A DNA stretch of 64,000 bases from assembly GCA_963995505.1 (NCBI GenBank), contig OZ023199.1:3281906-3345905 (forward strand), written 5' to 3'. Source of the stretch: Hypericum androsaemum. Taxonomy: Eukaryota > Streptophyta > Magnoliopsida > Malpighiales > Hypericaceae. The translations under genes were made by a program, and so were the position numbers. How positions within the stretch are numbered: the stretch's first letter is position 1; the number at the start of each line of letters is the position of its first letter. A model generated the notes under the pieces. That model saw only the letters and a list, made by a program, of their open reading frames with translations, ran no database searches and had not been told where the DNA came from. Of this stretch, positions 51,470-63,587 are shown piece by piece.

Positions 51470-53500
51470 CTCCATGAAACTATTCTCCCTCTTCCTAGCT
51501 CCTAGAATTTGAATTGATGAATCTTTAGTCTCTTCTCCGTCTTGTCTAGTGTAGAATCTATTTTCGAACGAGCATTTCGTTAGCCACTTGAACGTTGTGT
51601 TAATTATCCCTTGCGTTTTATAAATTTTAATATTTAGAGTCAAGCACTAAGTTATACATGTATCTCCATTTTTATGTGTATAGTTATAGTTATTTTGATT
51701 TTGGAAAGATTACATAATAATCTCACTAAGATTAATTTGAATCGATTAATCTTGTATAGTTTCTTGTCCATCGTGTCTAGTATATAATCTATTTCCGAAC
51801 AAGCATTTCTTGATTTCGCTAGCTATTTTGAAAGGTAATTTTTTCTAAAATTTAATATTTAGAGTCGAGTATTACTAGGTCCTACTTTATAATGAGATGT
51901 CTCTTCATTTTTATGTGTATTTATTTTATTTTTGAAATGATTTCATTTTTCTTTCAATTTTTGATTATTTCAATTTTTTGGAAAAATTTTCCTCTCTTCT
52001 TGATTGATTTCTTACTTCTATAGGATGTTAATATTATGTCATTTTTATTATATAATGTAAATTGAATAATGTTGTTAATTTTTTATAAAAATCGGATGTG
52101 TTCTAGATGCTACTTCCAATGTAAAACCTGGTATTTTAATGGTGAACTTAAAAAATTAAATGACTGAAACACAAATTAGCAGTGATCATTATTGCATTTT
52201 ATCGTCCCAAAAAATATACTCTCGTCTTAACCCCACGCGCCTCAGAAACCTCCAATTCTTACCCCGAGCCCACCCTTCCAAATGGACCCACAGACCCAGC
52301 CCATAACTGAACCCCAAAACCTAGCCCAAGCTTCAAACCCAGCCCATATCTGAGCCCAAGTCCCAAACCCCAGCCCATGCCCGAGCCATAAAACCCAGCC
52401 CAAGTTCCAAACCCAGTCCAGCTCATGTACGAACCCTACTCGAACCCCAAACCCTGACCGAACCCACCCAGTTATTTGTTATTTGCTTTATTCTCTCTCT
52501 TAATTTTATAGGTTTTAATGTATACAGTTATTTTTTTTGAAAGGTATGAATACAGTTATTGCTGTTTATTTTTGGAACGATTTCAATTTTTCTTTCAATT
52601 TTGGGTTATTTCAAAAAATGTAATTTTTTTGGGAATATTTTCTCTCTTCTTGGTTGATTTTTTCCTTTTATAGAATATTAATTTTATGTCATTTTCATTA
52701 AACAAAGTAAATTGGATGATGTGTCATTTTTTATGTCAATTGGATAATGTGTTATTTTTTTGGTCACGTTTACGGACTAATTAGTTCAATTAGGGACAAA
52801 TTATTTTTGAAAGGTATATTTTTACACAATGATTACAGTATTAGGATTTGTATCTTGAATATTTTTGAATTTATACACGCATTGTATCGTTATCAATTTG
52901 AAACTATATGGTACTAAAATGTGAAAATGTGAAATTACATGATACTTACGCGGACTAAAAAGCAATTGCAACTATCGTAGAAGTTACCTTTGTCAATGGA
53001 TATGGTTGGTAAGAAAATTGGAGGCATTGGTTCAAGCTTAATGCATATAAAAAATATTATTAAAGTTATACTTGAACGTCAAAGGGTATGAAGTTTAATG
53101 GCACAAAAAATTGTAAAATTCAAGTAGGTGCAAGATTCAAAGTCTGATAATATCAAGATGTAAAAATTTAGCAAAAAAAAATAAACCCACCTCTAAGAAC
53201 ACTTAATTTAAGCTAACATTGGAAGAAATTCAAGTAAGAATTAAGTTGAAGAAGCAGGCCCACGGCCCATTGCCACGTTGGTTTAACTAACTTTAGATGA
53301 CTAGGACTTTTTGAAACCTGTGTAATAACCGTTTCTCCCTCCACTTTAAACAATCCTCTTTTAGCTCAAGAAATGAGAAATATTTCTTACCTTCGCTTTT
53401 AGATAGAAACTGTAACTAACCAGAAAAACTCTTAAGCTCATTTTAGTTCAATATGAAGAGGTTACTTTTCCCTCCAGCTCTCTCTACATCGGAGCTCATT
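51470..53500. other. AT-rich gap, possibly the leader intron of the downstream fusion gene
   Basis: No gene recognised. A CCCA-rich degenerate repeat lies at 52255-52465 (for example CCCAGCCCAAGTTCCAAACC). The rest is T-rich. Confidence 0.4.
52255..52465. repeat. Degenerate CCCAGCCCA-type short-period repeat
   Basis: AACCCAGCCCA, GAGCCCAAG and GAACCCCAAACC variants recur about every 20 bp on the plus strand. It stands out as C-rich in T-rich surroundings. Confidence 0.6.
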
Positions 53501-53693
53501 TTAGTTCGGCCATTGTTGAACGGAAATAACTACTAGTCTTGGAGTAGATCTATGTTCCTTGTTCTGCATAGCCGTTCTTGAGCTTACTCTTGATCTCGTG
53601 AAGTCGCTAGTAAGTTCTCTCCTCGATTTTCTTTAATCGGAGCGGTATTTTACTTGGATCGGAGTTAGTTGTTCGTGAATCTAGTTGAATCTA

Positions 53694-54052
53694 GTTGCAT
53701 AGAGATGATGTTAATCACTTGGGAACTGACGTGGATTCTGAAGAGATGTCTAGTCCTTATCGTCTTCGTTCGAGTGGAAATCCTCCACTCGTGCTAGTTT
53801 GGCCATTGTTGAACGGAAATGACTACTAGTCTTGGAGTAAATCTATGTTCCTTGTTCTTCGCTTAAAGAATAAAGTCGGTTTTGTTGACGGATCTATAAT
53901 AGTACCAACTGCTGATGATCCGATGTATAACAAGTGGGAGAGGTGTAACACTACTGTTTTAAGTTGGATCATGAACGCTTTCAATTTGACTCATCATTTG
54001 TTTTATGAACTGCTAGACTCAAACATCTTTATCTCATTTCTTAACCTGCAGA
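53694..54052 (+). pseudogene. Copia-like gag N-terminal domain fragment
   Basis: The plus-strand frame from about 53694 reads SSPYRLRSSGNPPLVLVWPL, then LNGNDY, one TAG stop, then SWSKSMFLVLRLKNKVGFVD and KWERCNTTVLSWIMNAF. This matches the Copia-like retrotransposon N-terminal domain found before the UBN2 gag domain. Nothing of the rest of gag follows; the frame runs on to a stop at the presumed acceptor of the TCTP exon. A short second copy of the CGGCCATTGTTGAACGGAAA segment lies at 53505-53570. Confidence 0.75.
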
Positions 54053-54136
54053 TTTGATTCCTCTTTTGCCTCTCGCTCGTCTGCTCGAGAGATTCCCAGT
54101 TTCGGATCGGTCCAGAAGATAATCTAACGGCCAAAC
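54053..54136 (+). promoter_or_regulatory. Probable 5' leader of the TCTP-type exon
   Basis: TTTCTTAACCTGCAG at 54038-54052 looks like a 3' splice site. The following 84 bases up to the ATG are pyrimidine-rich (CCTCTTTTGCCTCTCGCTCG). This supports a noncoding first exon further upstream. Confidence 0.5.
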
Positions 54137-54556
54137 ATGTTGGTCTACCAGGATCTTCTCTCCGGTGATGAGCTTCTTTCGGACTCCTTCCCCTACAAGG
54201 AGATCGAGAATGGAATGCTTTGGGAGGTTGAGGGGAAGTGGGTTGTACAAGGTAGCGATAATGTTAAGGTTGTCGATATTGTTGACACCTTTAGGCTTCA
54301 GGAACAACCTCCTTTCGACAAGAAGCAGTTTGTGACATTCATGAAGAGGTTCGTCAAGCCCAAATTGGAGATAGATCGGCAAGAAAACTTTAAGAAACAC
54401 GTTGAGGGGGCAACCAAGTTTCTACTTTCGAAGCTCAATCACCTTCGATTCTTCGTTGGAGAGAGCATCCATGATGACGGGTGTTTGGTGTTCGCCTACT
54501 ACAAGGACGGTGCCGTCAACCCGACATTTTTCTACTTCTCCTATGCATTGAGGGAG
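54137..54556 (+). other. Intron-free TCTP domain exon lacking the acidic loop
   Basis: Plant TCTP genes normally have several introns. Here the whole domain is one exon, so it probably arose by retrocopying. About 20-25 residues between WVVQG and [10 protein letters not shown] are missing. They normally form the flexible acidic loop that carries the first TCTP signature (IGANPSAE). The second signature region is present ([20 protein letters not shown]). The last residues of TCTP are replaced by the splice donor GAG/GTAAGT. Confidence 0.9.
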
Positions 54557-57500
54557 GTAAGTGTTGAAGATTAAAGATAGCTAGGTGTTTGGTGTTCGGT
54601 GGTGTCCTGTGATTATTTTTCTGGGTCCAAGTATTCATATTATGGGACCAATATCTAACCCGCAGATTTGTTTCATTCAATTTCAGATGGAAAGAAGGAG
54701 CTCATCGACAAAAAAGATGGAAGCTGAGAGTTCGAAAAAGGTTAGAAGAATATCAACCTTGAACAATGTGCTATAAGCATGCTTTTCTCTGAAACGGTAT
54801 TAAGCATGCTTTTCTTTGAAACGGTAATGAGCAAACGCTTGTTTAAGAAGTCTTTATTTAGTAGGTTAGACATATTTACTAATGACTATGATATAGTCAT
54901 TGATCATGTTCTGTTGAGAATAAGATCGAAACGAGTAAAAACGAGAGACATAAGAATTACGTGGAAATCTCAAGACGGGGAGAAAACCACGGGCAAAGGA
55001 GAGTCGTCCACTATGCGAGTCAAACAGGTTATAAAGATTCCGTCTCGACTACTCTACAAAATACCTAGGCATAGGTCGATAGATATAGGAGACTATTACT
55101 CTATCCTAAATAGGAATAGAGCTCTACTCTAATTAGGAATTTGGGACAAATCCTAACAAATCTCTACCTTGGACCAAATTCTATGACTCTAACATCAACG
55201 CTGCTCCACTTTCACCATCAGTCCCTAAGGGCAATCATCATCAAGCACGAAAACTTACCAAGTCCAAGCAATGCTCGAACTTAGTACCAGAAAGCGGCTT
55301 CGTCAACATGTCTGTAGGGTTATCCTGGGTACCAATCTTGCTCACAACAATGTTACCTTGAGCAACATGCTCCCGAATGAAGTGGTACCTCACATCAATG
55401 TGCTTCATCCTCTCATGATACATAGCATCCCTCGTGAGATGAATTGCACTTTGACTATTACAGTACACTGTACTGACCTGCAGCTTCTCACAAATTTTAC
55501 TAAAAAAACTTGTCAATCAGATAGCCTCCTTCACATCTTCAGTTATAGCCATGTACTCCGCCTCAGTGGTAGACAATGTCACTGTGGTTTATAGACAAGC
55601 TCTCCAACTAATAGCGCATCCTCCAAGAGTAAAGAGATATCCAGACAATGACATGAACTTATCAAGATCTCCAGCATAATCTGATAATCTACTCTACTTA
55701 GTACCTCATAATCTAGTCCACTGATCTCCAATGACCTACTCCAGGATTTTCCATAAACCTGCTAACAACACTCACATCATAGGCCAAATCTGGGCGTGTG
55801 CAAACCATAGCATACATCAGAGAATAAACAGCAATGGAGTATGGAACACCAGACATGTAATCGACCTCAGCAGCTGACTGTGGAGATAAAGCGGACGAAA
55901 GCTACAAATATGTACCAAGAGGAGTACTCACAGGATTATCAGTCACATCAAACCTGTCAAGTACCTTTTCAATGTAACTCTCCTGACTCAGAAATAATTT
56001 CCTTGCTCCTCTATCTCTGGCAATTTCCATACTAAGAATCTTCTTAGCTGGACCCAAATCTTTCATCTCAAACTCGCTATTCAACAGAGCTTTGAGCTTC
56101 CTCACCTCTCCTTTTTCACTGTCAGCAATTAACATGTCATCCACAAACATGAGTAAATAAAATTAGGAATCGTCGCGTAACCTTTTCAGGTAAACACAAC
56201 TATCATACTTGCTCCTCTCATAACCATGAGAAATCATAAAGGAATCAAACCTTTTATACCACTGCCTCAGAGATTGCTTAAGGCCATACAAGGACTTCTT
56301 CAACAAGCACACATGGTCTTCTTTGCCTTCAACATGAAAACCCTCAGGCTGTACCATATAAATCTGCTCCTCAAACTCTCCATTTAAGAAAGCTGTCTTC
56401 ACATCAAGCTATTCAAGCTCCAAATCCTGCATAGCGATAACACCAAGAAGAGACGAATCGAGGTATGCTTCACTACTGGTGAAAATACCTCATTAAAGTT
56501 CACACCAGAAATCTGACTATATCCTTTAGCCACTAGTCTAGCCTTGTATCTAGGCTCTTCAACTCCAGGTATACCATCCTTCTTCTTGAATACCCACTTG
56601 CAACTGACAACCTTCTTATCCTTAGGCAGCTTAGTAATCTCCCAAGTCTTGTTCTTGTGAAGAGATTATATCTCTTCCTCCATAGCAACCAACCATCTAG
56701 CAGAGTCTTTCGACTTCACAGCATCTGAGTAACTAGACAGTTCTTCACAGCTATCAACTTCTTCTGCCACATTCAAGGCAAAAGCAACAATATCAGCCTC
56801 ACCCAACTTCTGTGGAGGCCTGATAATTCTTCTGGGCCTGTCTCTAGCAATAGAATACATTGGCTCCCTCTCAACTGTGCCAACATTCTCAGCTTCATCA
56901 GACTACCCATCATGAGTAGGATCATGAAAATCAATATCACAGAAGGAACTCGCTTCTGGATCAGCATCAAACTCCACCTGCACTTTTGACTTTTGCAAGT
57001 CCACACTTGGAGCACTGGAAATACCAGGTGAAGAAACATCCTCCCTCTTACTCAGAATGTCTGTCTTTTTGAAAATAATATTCCTACTCAACAAGACCTT
57101 AGATAGCTCGGGACACCACAACTTGTATCCCTTCACTCCAGAAGCATGGCCAAGGAAGATACATTTCACAGATCTTGGCTCTAACTTGCCATTATTTACA
57201 TGAGCATAGGCAGGACACCCAAATATCTTCAAATCAACATAATTAGGAGGATTTCTAGACCACAATTCTTCAGGTACCTTGCCATCAAGTGATACATGAG
57301 GTGAACGATTGACACGGTGACAGGCAGTGGAAGCAGGTTCAGCCCAAAACGACTTAGGCAAACCAGCATTTGACAGCATACAATGAACTTTCTCCAACAA
57401 AGTTCTATTCATTCTTTCAGCGACTCCATTCTGTTGAGGTGTACCCGGGATTGTCTTATGCCTGACAATACCCTCATTCTTGCAGAACTCATCAAACCAA

Positions 57501-60500
57501 CTAGAGCAAAACTACAATCTATTATCTGTGCGGAGATGCTTGACATCTCTCCCAGTCTGCTTCTCAACCATAGTCTTCTACTGCCTGAAAGTGACAAAGA
57601 CTTGATCTTTGCTCTTCAAGAAGAACGTCCACACCTTCCTCGAATAGCATCAATGATAGTCAGCATATACTTGGAACTATTCTTTGATACAACTTGAGAT
57701 GGTCCCCAAAGATCAGAATGAATATAGTCAAGTATTCCTTTTGTAATGTGCACACCTTTCTAAAAACTAACTTTCTTCTAGTTGCCAAACACATAGTGCT
57801 CACAAAATTCTAACTTCTCAATACCTTGTCCACATAATAATCATCTTTTATTCAGCTCGGTCATGCCTTTCTCACTCATGTGACCAAGTCGCATATGCCA
57901 CAATGAGGTATTCTTAGAATCTGTCAATGGGCCAGATGCAGCAACAGTAGTCCTTGTAACTGTAGAACACTGCAAAACATACAGATTCCCAACCTCCTTC
58001 TTGGCCTTCATATGCACTAATGAGTTCTTACTCATACGAAGAACTCCACCTTCTCTGGTGTACCTATACCCCCAATGAATCAAGGGTACTCAGTGAAATC
58101 AAGTTCCGCTTCAAATCAGGGATATGCCTCACATTCGTCAAGGTTCGAATGACACCATCATACATCTTGATCTTCACTGTACCAATACCAACAACCTTGC
58201 AGACAAAATTATTTCCCATGAGAACATTACCCTCCTTACATTCATATGTTGAAAACTGTCCCGGATGGGACACATATAAAAAGTACAAGCAGAATCAAGG
58301 ACCCTAGCAGCATCAACTTTAGACTTTACATCAATCACTGACAAAAGGTCTCCATTAGATTCTTCTTTCTGAGTGGTAGTGACAACACTAGCAATGCCGC
58401 TATCAGAACTTTCTTCTTTCGGAGCACTGGACTTTTTGCCCTTCTTCTTGTTCTTCAGCTCCGGACAGAACCATTTAATATACCCAACCTTATGACAATT
58501 GAAACAAGTCTTATCAATGTGCCTTGACCTTGATTTACTTCTGCTCTTCTTTCTCGAACCAGACTTAGCATTCCTCTCTTAAGACCTCCCCCTCACAACC
58601 AAGCCAGTCCCTTGGTTATTTTCAGAGGAACTAATAGTGTGCTTATAACTAACAGTGTGCTTATCAATTCTCTCTTTCTCCAAGAGCGAATCATGAACAT
58701 TATCCCAGCTAAGAGTATCACGGCTGAACAACAGAGTATCCCTGAATTGCTGATAGGAGGCAGGCAACGAGCACAATAACAATAAAGCCAGATCTTCATC
58801 ATCATACTTCACACCTAGAGTTCTAAGATCATCCATTATATCCTTAAATTTATTAAGGTGGTCATGAACAGACTTATCTTCTTGCATCCGGATAGAAAAC
58901 AGTCGTTGCTTCAAGCACAGTTTGTTGGTCAAACTCTTGGGCATGCACAACTTTTCAAGCTTTGCCCACAATGAGGAAGTTGTTGTCTCCTTCATCACGT
59001 CCCGCAAAATATCATCTGACAAATGCAACTGAATCTGACTCATAACTTTATAGTTCTTTGACGCTTTCATCGCAGCATCCCAACTCGAAGGCATCAACTT
59101 TTCATCATGTAGAGTCTCATCCAGCTCTAAATGTGTCAGAATAACACGCATCTTCACCTGCCACAAGGAAAAAATTAGTTTTTCTCGTCAACTGAGGGAT
59201 CTCGTACTTTATAGAAGTCATCTCGAAACACCTCGAACCCAAAAAATCAGCCCAAAATAGGTTAGAAACCAAAATAGTTGACTTTTGGTCAACCTGTCAA
59301 ACCGTTGACCACGTCAACTCGAAATTAGGATTTTTCAAACCAAAACTTCTAAGAGCGGCCGGACCACCACGGCGGGCGGCGACGGCTCGGCTGTGATGAG
59401 CGCGGACGGAGGACACAGTGATGCGTCGGTGGATGGCGGTGGCGTCAGGATTCAAGGGTTCTTTCTCTCTCCCCGAAATCCTCCTCTCTCCCCAATGACA
59501 AGATGAACGGTGATCGGTGGAGCTTCTCCCGGCACGGTGAAGGTGCGCAGGGGCGGTCGCCTCTCTGAGGCGACGACGGCGGTGATCGGGTGCGCGTCTC
59601 CTTCTCTCGCATCGGAGTTCAACAACGAACTCCAAACCCCGATGAACGAGAGTCTTTGCGTCTTCTCTCTTCAAGCTGCAACGAGACGACGGCGATGGGG
59701 CTCGGCGGCGCGCGGGCAGGCTAGCGACAGACGCGGCTCTGGGCGAAGGATGATGACGACGCTGGGATGCGGGGGGTGGTCGGCCGCTGCTTCTCTGCGA
59801 CGGCTCCAAAGGGTTTTGAGAAGACCCAAAATCCCCAATCTCAAATTTTCCCCAATTCGCAATGTGCCAATTTTTTTTTCTCGAATACTTGAATCTCAGA
59901 TCTGGCTCTGATACCACTTGTTGAGAATAAGATCGAAACTAGTAAAAACGTGAGACACAAGAATTACGTGAAAACCACGGGCAAAGGAGAGTCGTCCACT
60001 ATGCGAGTCAAACAGGTTACAAGGGTTCCGTCTTAATTGCTCTACAAAAGACCTAGGCATAGGTCGATATATATAGGAGACTGTTACTCTATCCTAAATA
60101 AGAATAGAGTTCTACTGTAATTAGGAATTTGGGACAAATCCTAGCATGTTCCATGTTCAATTTTTCACTTTGAAATAATATTTTTAATCCAAATTCTTTA
60201 ATACTTGGATCAATTAGTATTGATTTTTTTCCATAAGATATTAACTTTTCCCAATTGAGTATCATGCAAATACCGCGAGAAAAAATGTTTATGATTTACA
60301 TTATGCAACCGTTCTTTATTCTGTAAACAAATGACATTGAATTTGTTTTTTCAGAGGGGAGTTGGACAGAGTTCAAAAAAGGTAGCAATGATATTTAAGT
60401 TGTTCTTTTTATCGTTTCTTGGATATTTAATGGAGTTTAAACTTTTTAGTGAAATTGTTTTCCCGTAGGGGTGGAGTATCAATAAGCCAGTGGAGATGTT

Positions 60501-61427
60501 ATCTCCTATCTATCATCAAGCAGGAGGTATAATATAGTTTGACCATTAAAATTTTAATTTAATTATGTATTTGAATGATACATACTTTCTTTTTTAGATA
60601 CTTGTGTTGCAATTGCGATCGTTGGAGTTATCGAAGCAATATACAACATGCAGAAGAATCCACAAGATATGATAGTACTATCTGTTGAGGACATGATAGA
60701 ATGGTATTTGCAAAAGGAGTTAATGAGTTCTGGTGTCTCGGCAACGGATAAAGTGTATAACCACATTATCAACAGCGGTGGAATTGCCAAGACAGATTTT
60801 GCTTCAAGCGACTCTCTTATTGATTTCGCCATTAAAAGACAAAATGAAATAGTGAGAGCAAGTAAGAGAAAAGGAAAAGAAAGAAAAAGGAGAGAAGCAA
60901 AGAAAGAAGTAAGTCACTGCAATTACCTTTAGGACTAAAATTTATTATTGTTAAATGATTTATTCATACATCTAATTTAGTTTAATGTTTTCAGGTCTCG
61001 ATCAATGGCTACAAGAACTTGACTCCTAAGAATGAAAGAGAAGTGGTTGATATTCTGTCACACCATCCCGTTGTTGGAATTTTCGACGTGTATCCATCAT
61101 TTGAAAACCTACCAATGGGGGAGGTGATCGTCTAATATCATCATACTTTATTATATACATGTACATAAATTATAGAATTTTATAGAATTGTGTGATTTCT
61201 TTCAGGTCTATAAAGGACCTACGGAGGAGGAAATAAGGACGGGTGAAGAGACTATATTACATGCCGTGCAGGTTTATGGACATGGAGGTTCGGAAGAGAC
61301 CGGGTATTACTGGGAGGTGAAAAATTCTCACGGGCCAGATTGGAGCAATAGCGGATATGGCAGGGTATCCACCACCATACCGTTGGTGTCGATATCGTAC
61401 CCAACTGGGGTAGAAAATGCATCATAA
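54137..61427 (+). CDS. Predicted TCTP / papain-like cysteine peptidase fusion (406 residues)
   Basis: Exons: 54137-54556, 54687-54740, 60355-60381, 60469-60526, 60598-60908, 60995-61123, 61206-61427. All donors and acceptors are GT-AG and phases agree. Exon 1 is a 140-residue TCTP-like domain ([40 protein letters not shown]). Exons 2-3 are a basic, Ser/Lys-rich 27-residue linker. Exons 4-7 form a divergent C1A peptidase: active-site Cys in [20 protein letters not shown], His in [11 protein letters not shown] and Asn in [13 protein letters not shown]. It has no signal peptide or propeptide. Intron 2 contains a whole Copia element in the opposite orientation. Alternatively, the TCTP exon reads through its donor to a stop at 54574 as a separate 145-residue protein, and the peptidase starts at an ATG in exon 2. 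The exon structure favours fusion; transcript proof is lacking. Confidence 0.72.
54912..55158 (-). repeat. Copia LTR (3' by orientation)
   Basis: 247 bp, with about 19 extra bases relative to the other LTR near 54963 (AATCTCAAGACGGGGAG region). Confidence 0.93.
55241..58578 (-). pseudogene. Copia pol remnants: protease, integrase, RT, RNase H
   Basis: Broken frames on the minus strand carry, in order, an aspartic protease-like LDSACT, the GAG-pre-integrase [15 protein letters not shown] (57841-58083), the integrase core end (56903-57412), RT with [19 protein letters not shown] (56163-56402) and [10 protein letters not shown] (55902-56150), and RNase H with [12 protein letters not shown] (55241-55516). 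Several stops and frameshifts separate them. Confidence 0.88.
58579..59166 (-). pseudogene. Copia gag (UBN2 domain)
   Basis: An open stretch of 195 codons matches the gag polypeptide of LTR Copia elements, including [20 protein letters not shown] and [22 protein letters not shown] at 58579 interrupts the frame before the zinc knuckle, where [14 protein letters not shown] has lost the His of CCHC. The natural N-terminus is not evident upstream. Confidence 0.85.
59167..59918 (-). other. Copia internal leader (untranslated region between PBS and gag)
   Basis: GC-rich (CGGCGG, GGCGACGG runs) with an incidental open frame. It contains GTTGACTTTTGGTCAACC motifs near 59278 that also occur at about 22460 in the non-autonomous element, suggesting kinship. 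Confidence 0.6.
59919..60146 (-). repeat. Copia LTR (5' by orientation)
   Basis: 228 bp, starts TGTTGAGAATAAGATCGAAA, highly similar to 54912-55158. Confidence 0.93.
60469..61427 (+). other. Divergent C1A peptidase domain exons
   Basis: The four exons give 239 residues. Catalytic Cys, His and Asn positions are all present, but the Trp after Cys is Val, the Trp in NSWG is His, and the oxyanion Gln spacing is altered. The active-site Cys is the only Cys in the domain, so the usual disulfides are lost. A K/R-rich segment ([18 protein letters not shown]) is inserted between the L and R lobes. These traits suit a reducing compartment such as cytosol or nucleus. Confidence 0.82.
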
Positions 61428-62697: not shown

Positions 62698-63524
62698 TTA
62701 ACCAAAAGACTCGTAATAAGCAAAAGGCTTGTCAAACCATATACCAAGAGTATACGACTCAAAATTCCTTACGGCTTGATCTTGGCGAACACGAATTACC
62801 TGATCAGGTTTGGGCCTGAAGATGAAGAGGTGTGGTTTGTTGCCCAAACATTCGACATGTGCTTGGTAAATCTTGATATCCGTTGTGCCAATAACTCTGG
62901 CATTCAAGGTAATGAGGAACTTACAGGGGTTGGAGCTACCTCGATTAGCCTTGGTGACATCCACAAACTCAAGCTTCTCAAACTAATAAATAGTCCATAA
63001 AGAAATTAGTCACCAAGCTACACATATACAAAAACTGCGCAAGATGCAAACAGACCTTTTCTGCGTTGTGACGTTCAATAGCGTACTTTGCACAGTTGGC
63101 AACAGCCTCCATAGTGCGTTCGTCCTTCAAATTCGCTGGGCGTAGTCCTCCGATCCTTTTAGGCACACGAGGAAATATGTCGACATCGAAACCCTAGCAT
63201 TACCAAATCAAACAATCCCCATGGAAAGAACAAAGAGTTCAACAATCGAATGTTCCGATACATAAATACATACATATAAAAGGTACGCACATCGGATAGT
63301 TTGAGTTGCTTGAGATAGCTGAACCAGATTTCATTCTCTTGCTTGGTTAGGCTGTCGTAGACGAAGTCGGGATTGCTGAGGAATTTTTCCATATCTTCCT
63401 CGCTGCAGGGTACGTAATAGCGGCCATCGTTGAAGCTGCAGCCATCACTGTCGCTGTCGTCGTCGTCCAGCTCCGGCCTTTTAGATTCCCTCCCGCTGAT
63501 CACGGTTTCACGCACCGAAGCCAT
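62698..63524 (-). CDS. Cystatin-fold protein (plant cystatin-like / DUF626-type), 218 residues
   Basis: Exons, 5' to 3': 63291-63524, 63056-63193, 62698-62982, all phase 0. The N-terminal part is acidic (ELDDDDSDSDGCSF) followed by YYVPCSEEDMEKFLSNPDFV. The second exon has GFDVDIFPRVPKRIGGLRPA and EAVANCAKYAIERHNAEK, the helix that starts the cystatin fold. The third begins FEKLEFVDVTKANRG and continues with a cystatin-type beta region (FLITLNARVIGTTDIKIYQA). The QxVxG loop of papain inhibitors is not evident, so inhibitory activity is uncertain. Exon 3 might end earlier at a CAG/GTAATT donor near 62800. It is convergent with the peptidase fusion gene. Confidence 0.78.
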
Positions 63525-63587
63525 ACTCCGATCAGAAAACCCTAAAATTGGCACAAAGGGGAAGGCTTTTTTTGGGGTGGGGGGCGG

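Follow-up and report, generated by a model that had tools for sequence, protein, structure and literature searches.

TRIMCyp and jingwei are characterised chimeric genes in which a cDNA inside a host gene has become part of a chimera. They are named in a passage of PMC6881317, according to which chimeric retrogenes are also known from plants, rice having 898 putative retrogenes of which 380 are chimeric. Here we describe a candidate chimeric retrogene in a 64,000-nucleotide stretch of Hypericum androsaemum (contig OZ023199.1; the whole stretch is called the window). The genes and elements in it are those of a plant, and it corresponds to contig C20, 3281906-3345905, of the 385-Mb assembly of 29 contigs that was searched. 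At this locus the mRNA of the TCTP gene on contig C1 of the same genome was reverse-copied into the sequence just before the ATG exon of a gene for a papain-like (C1A) peptidase, duplicating 19 bp of the target; of this origin and this site we are highly confident.

As in the plant chimeric retrogenes of that passage, an mRNA copy was inserted where neighbouring exon-intron sequence can be recruited; here, however, a C1A-like gene is the partner, with a chimeric transcript predicted from DNA. In comparison with TRIMCyp and jingwei, the retrocopy lies on the N-terminal side, and the chimera is a candidate. For L1-like retrocopies of dicots, an excerpt of PMC4838847 gives target site duplications of 13, 15 and 17 bp, also with mismatches, and states that the marks of retrocopies decay fast, tailless copies being mentioned there for therian mammals. 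The duplication in the window is of similar length to those in the excerpt and also has mismatches, whereas the window copy differs from the copies described there in having no poly(A) tail and no exact TTAAAA site. A literature search found nothing relevant on a TCTP-cysteine protease fusion among the papers listed and no publication on a plant TCTP retrocopy; the initial annotation had known of no described TCTP-protease fusion either, and Pfam PF00112 is found in 0 of the 19 proteins matching the fusion query. Processed pseudogenes of mammalian TCTP, in which TCTP mRNA was likewise retroposed, were reportedly described by Thiele in 2000; we know of none that is joined to another gene.

Origin and insertion site of the TCTP copy

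The TCTP-like open frame (54137-54556, plus strand), which forms one coding exon of 140 residues, matches Pfam PF00838 with 128.9 bits (cut-off 24.3). It is part of an intronless copy of a TCTP mRNA (54060-54658, plus strand), which extends from the inferred start of parental transcription to the point where similarity to the parental 3′ untranslated region (UTR) ends and overlaps the right flanking repeat with its last 3 bases. The parent on C1 has five exons of 28, 74, 129, 158 and 118 nucleotides, the same lengths as published for cucumber TCTP1 and TCTP2 in a section of PMC5605047, and its four introns are all absent from the window copy. The first base of the copy, 54060, corresponds to C1 position 856, which probably lies near the start of parental transcription because a TATAAA is found about 25 nucleotides upstream. 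By eye, no poly(A) tail is present ahead of 54656. The TCTP part is a retrocopy of a TCTP mRNA and not an old domain of the peptidase gene; no significant TCTP match was found next to other C1A paralogs in seven paralog stretches (best E value 0.38).

The acidic loop with I-G-A-N-P-S-A-E is a signature of the TCTP family. This loop of 22 residues (66 nucleotides) is missing from the window copy, as are 9 nucleotides (3 residues) elsewhere in the frame and the family's final V-K-C, so that the domain, initially stated to be complete, is not. Both internal indels preserve the frame. AlphaFold2 was tried as a judge of the deletions and set aside, since the mean predicted local distance difference test score was limited both for the TCTP exon (64.9) and for an intact-TCTP control with the same 36 sequences (58.7). 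Elsewhere in the genome at least three intron-containing TCTP loci (C1, C3 and C6) and at least two further intronless remnants (C5) were found. The two C5 retrocopies are 5′-truncated and frame-broken; TCTP mRNA has therefore been retroposed repeatedly in this genome.

The copy is flanked by a direct repeat, the probable target site duplication, at 54042-54060 and 54656-54674 (both plus strand), in which 17 of 19 bases are identical, with 14 identical in a 15-bp core. Shuffled sequences matched the 17/19 repeat in 0 of 4000 cases when the flanks were narrow and in 1 of 4000 when they were wide; the core was matched in 2 and 31 of 4000, respectively. The left repeat contains TTAAC as well as an AG with an acceptor-like score, which would start an exon at 54052, and the right repeat together with the preceding base gives a branch-point-like CTAAC (54655-54659).

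The uninterrupted site is present in two paralogs of the peptidase gene, on contigs C13 and C11. When the flanks in the window were joined, they aligned with these paralogs with scores of 140 (C13) and 106 (C11), whereas the scores were 111 and 79 when the right flank was left attached to the end of the TCTP copy, its true neighbour. After shuffling of the left flank, the joined score was reached in 0 of 1000 (C13) and 3 of 1000 (C11) cases. It should be noted that the ATG exon of C13 contains an early stop and would have to start at the next ATG, and that C11 carries stops. In five of the six family copies inspected (window, C13, C11, C14a and C3; C8 was not inspected, and C14b, which nearly duplicates C14a, was counted together with it) AG directly precedes ATG at the exon start. 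That a leader intron precedes the ATG exon in most family copies, with this AG|ATG as its conserved acceptor, is well supported by the comparison, and because it is shared in this way the acceptor at 54687 is older than the TCTP insertion. The retrocopy thus probably landed in the 3′ end of the 5′-leader intron of a stand-alone peptidase gene.

Junction, joined frame and alternative explanations

A strong donor at the end of the TCTP frame had been noted at the outset, and it is borne out: GAG|GTAAGT at 54556/57 (GTAAGT at 54557-54562, plus strand) ranks in the top 0.07% of the 2,953 plus-strand GT sites in the window, and the acceptor at 54686/87 is among the best 1.5% of the 3,912 plus-strand AG sites, both by an approximate frequency matrix. 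The intron 54556/54687 has 130 nucleotides, is 62% AT and contains one branch-point-like CTAAC, the A of which lies 28 nucleotides before the intron end. The donor came from a one-base shift in the former last TCTP codons, and this is why the domain ends exactly there. The frame ends with GAGGTCAAG in the genes on C1 and C6 and in retrocopy C5b, with GAGGCCAAG in retrocopy C5a and with GAGGTAAGT, shorter by one base, in the window; among the five copies compared only that in the window has GTAAGT, the others having GTCAAG (C1, C6 and C5b) or GCCAAG (C5a). When the donor is not used, the TCTP frame ends with the tail EVSVED at its own stop (54572-54574, plus strand), which starts 16 nucleotides past the last exon base.

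Downstream of the TCTP frame six exons, all on the plus strand, are open in phase through a TAA stop at 61425-61427: exon 2 (54687-54740), which carries the peptidase gene's own ATG, preceded by the AG common to the paralogs, and a Ser/Lys-rich extension; exon 3 (60355-60381), a linker; exon 4 (60469-60526), in which the C1A-like region begins; exon 5 (60598-60908) with the catalytic Cys and a Lys/Arg-rich stretch; exon 6 (60995-61123), also of the C1A domain; and exon 7 (61206-61427) with the catalytic His and Asn and the stop. The proposed C1A domain is confirmed (Peptidase_C1, E value 1.9e-17), and the product joined from the TCTP exon and these six exons has 406 residues. The matching phases had already been noted. 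The exons are indeed in phase, but the phases of exons 3 to 7 are the peptidase gene's own and uninformative on joining; the sole junction bearing on the fusion is 54556/54687, the phase of which fits with a prior chance of 1 in 3. With its strong donor, its branch-point-like CTAAC and an acceptor common to the paralogs, the junction is well formed, and the joined frame is sound. The stretch 54052-54136 is free of ATG, and the first ATG after 54052 is that of TCTP.

A chimera could be made as follows. The insertion would have placed an exon-like, GC-richer TCTP block (exon 47% GC) between an upstream start and the old acceptor, and transcripts from the upstream peptidase start would meet a TCTP exon with an acceptor-like left edge at 54052 and a very strong new donor at 54556. 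Inclusion of this exon in part of the mRNA would join TCTP to residue 1 of the peptidase, and skipping would leave the peptidase alone, starting from its own ATG. The fused product would have a loop-less TCTP as its N-terminus and would be a papain-like protein of the cytosol or nucleus. That fused transcripts exist as at least one isoform we consider an even bet; that the fusion protein is functional is less likely and unproven. A working fusion, in which the loop-less TCTP would carry a cytosolic papain-like protein to TCTP partners and would be switched by inclusion of the retroposed exon, is in our estimation unlikely. The first interpretation of the locus as a gene fusion stands with respect to the junction and the joined frame and has to be revised in that the origin is retroposition and the peptidase has its own ATG.

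Several observations weigh against a chimera. The fused transcripts are predicted from the genomic sequence; a native upstream leader exon was looked for and not identified; the family copy on C10 has, by eye, no AG|ATG; and the promoter was not copied, because homology starts at the inferred start of parental transcription. Peptidase exon 5 has just 37% GC, and GC content is therefore a poor exon marker here. The donor itself could be a neutral accident.

The evolution of the copy points in the same direction. Between retrocopy and C1 (140 codons) the number of synonymous substitutions per site (Ks) is 0.27 and that of non-synonymous ones (Ka) 0.072. With C6 as outgroup, the retrocopy branch has 12 synonymous and 20 non-synonymous changes, which is not different from neutral (P 0.15), as compared with 7 and 1 on the parental C1 branch (Fisher P 0.017 between the branches). 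Without three doubtful codons, which adjoin the 66-nucleotide deletion and are possibly misaligned, the retrocopy branch has 11 and 14 (P 0.059 versus neutral, 0.046 versus the parent branch), and with a fourth codon, changed at all three bases, also dropped, 10 and 12 (P 0.056 and 0.092, respectively). That the frame is still open after the 25 to 32 substitutions inferred for this branch is unsurprising, the chance of no stop being 0.27 with all codons and 0.37 without the three doubtful ones. Moreover, the copy departs from 5 of 75 columns with at least 98% conservation, where each of 113 homologs compared (from the first 118 among the best 120 of 808 matches) departs from 0 to 4. In sum, the TCTP copy is open and its constraint is relaxed relative to the parent, weak constraint being neither shown nor excluded. 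The first 38 codons (54137-54250) show no change on the retrocopy branch, synonymous or not, all 32 inferred changes lying beyond them; conversion or chance is a possible explanation.

This relaxed evolution is what would be expected if the TCTP copy were an inert retropseudogene in the leader intron or 5′ flank, spliced out or not transcribed, with the peptidase made from the ATG at 54687. The peptidase's own ATG at the exon start, common to the family copies, and the broken state of the genome's two other TCTP retrocopies speak for the same explanation, to which we give a little less than an even chance. It does not readily account for an intact frame with in-frame indels only, nor for the fact that the single frame-breaking change falls just outside the exon, where it yields a near-perfect donor. 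Also the coding sequence has fewer mismatches to the parent (43 of 428, 10%) than the UTRs (25 of 164, 15%), the latter figure being partly inflated by uncertain alignment beside gaps.

The copy could also be expressed alone, as a TCTP-like protein of 145 residues ending at 54572-54574, independently of the peptidase, since the open frame was copied together with the 5′ UTR and part of the 3′ UTR; this is improbable, however, because the copied sequence brought no promoter, the family end V-K-C is replaced and use of the donor removes the stop. An assembly or prediction artefact comes to mind because TCTP fused to unrelated domains recurs in protein records (8 of the 19 matches have a further Pfam domain), and in P0007, in P0012 and perhaps in the first TCTP copy of P0001 the TCTP part stops after the same Glu, fusions at that place having therefore been predicted before, with other neighbours; the flanking repeat and the uninterrupted paralogous sites mark a biological insertion and make an artefact highly improbable.

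The peptidase, its family and neighbouring elements

Plant papain-like C1A enzymes usually have a prodomain and disulfide cysteines. The peptidase part at the locus resembles them in its domain match (Peptidase_C1, 64.5 bits against a cut-off of 20.7, in a single stretch 47-249) and in its catalytic Cys, His and Asn, which align with those of ananain and dipeptidyl peptidase 1. These two and glycyl endopeptidase are its best solved relatives, dipeptidyl peptidase 1 not being a plant enzyme. The region of His and Asn contributes about 27 bits, and that of Cys alone is weak (about 5 bits). A Gln sits one residue nearer to Cys than the oxyanion Gln of dipeptidyl peptidase 1. In contrast to the plant enzymes, the 266-residue product has one Cys in total, a Lys/Arg-rich stretch, Val for Trp after the catalytic Cys and His in the NSWG motif, and Pfam finds no prodomain, Peptidase_C1 being the sole match in the peptidase part. 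Because of the single Cys and the missing prodomain match, a cytosolic or nuclear setting would be likelier than the secretory route. The product is papain-like and a putative protease. Since its own ATG is at the first base of exon 2, it can be made without TCTP.

A protein search with the 266-residue part gave 0 of 386 word-sharing candidates at an E value of 10 or below, and relatives were located in the plant's own genome. In the translations of seven paralog stretches Cys, His and Asn are, by eye, retained. Between the window and C13, 134 residues are identical over the 228 codons compared, with Ks 1.19, which is near saturation, Ka 0.29 and a ratio of 0.24 (bootstrap 0.15 to 0.37); this ratio is evidence of selection on the family and does not extend to the window copy since insertion. 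The peptidase belongs to a C1A family that is divergent and in which no prodomain is recognised, and a published prodomain-less plant C1A family was not found in the literature search. The closest paralog, on C13 (4173500-4183400), has, by eye, no intron between window exons 3 and 4, and two paralogs on C14 contain a one-exon unit (query 149-194) in tandem, in three and four copies, 368 bp apart.

The large intron contains a decayed Copia long terminal repeat (LTR) retrotransposon (54912-60146, minus strand; LTRs 54912-55158 and 59919-60146, 5-bp repeat TGTTC, Kimura two-parameter distance 0.079), which, if rates are alike, is younger than the split between retrocopy and parent. Its lesion count (12 junctions in 1,315 codons) presumes an intact element at insertion and was not relied on as a clock. 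A duplicated Copia-type gag relic is found just upstream of the retrocopy (53495-53565 and 53788-53858; 53830-54000), with PF14244 at E value 1.7e-8 for 53830-54054. Directly downstream of the peptidase gene lies a cystatin-like gene (62698-63540, minus strand), the hand-joined product of which matches SQAPI (E value 0.00097) and Cystatin (0.16) in Pfam, both weakly and under the curated cut-offs. It may be an inhibitor-like neighbour of the papain-like gene; no match to it was found beside other C1A paralogs in the seven paralog stretches.

The locus lends itself clearly to watching the birth of a chimeric gene, since the DNA shows the parent, the empty site, the target duplication and the change behind the donor. 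A divergent C1A family has, in addition, come to light in this genome. Should fused transcripts exist, a few steps would have joined a growth regulator to a papain-like domain.

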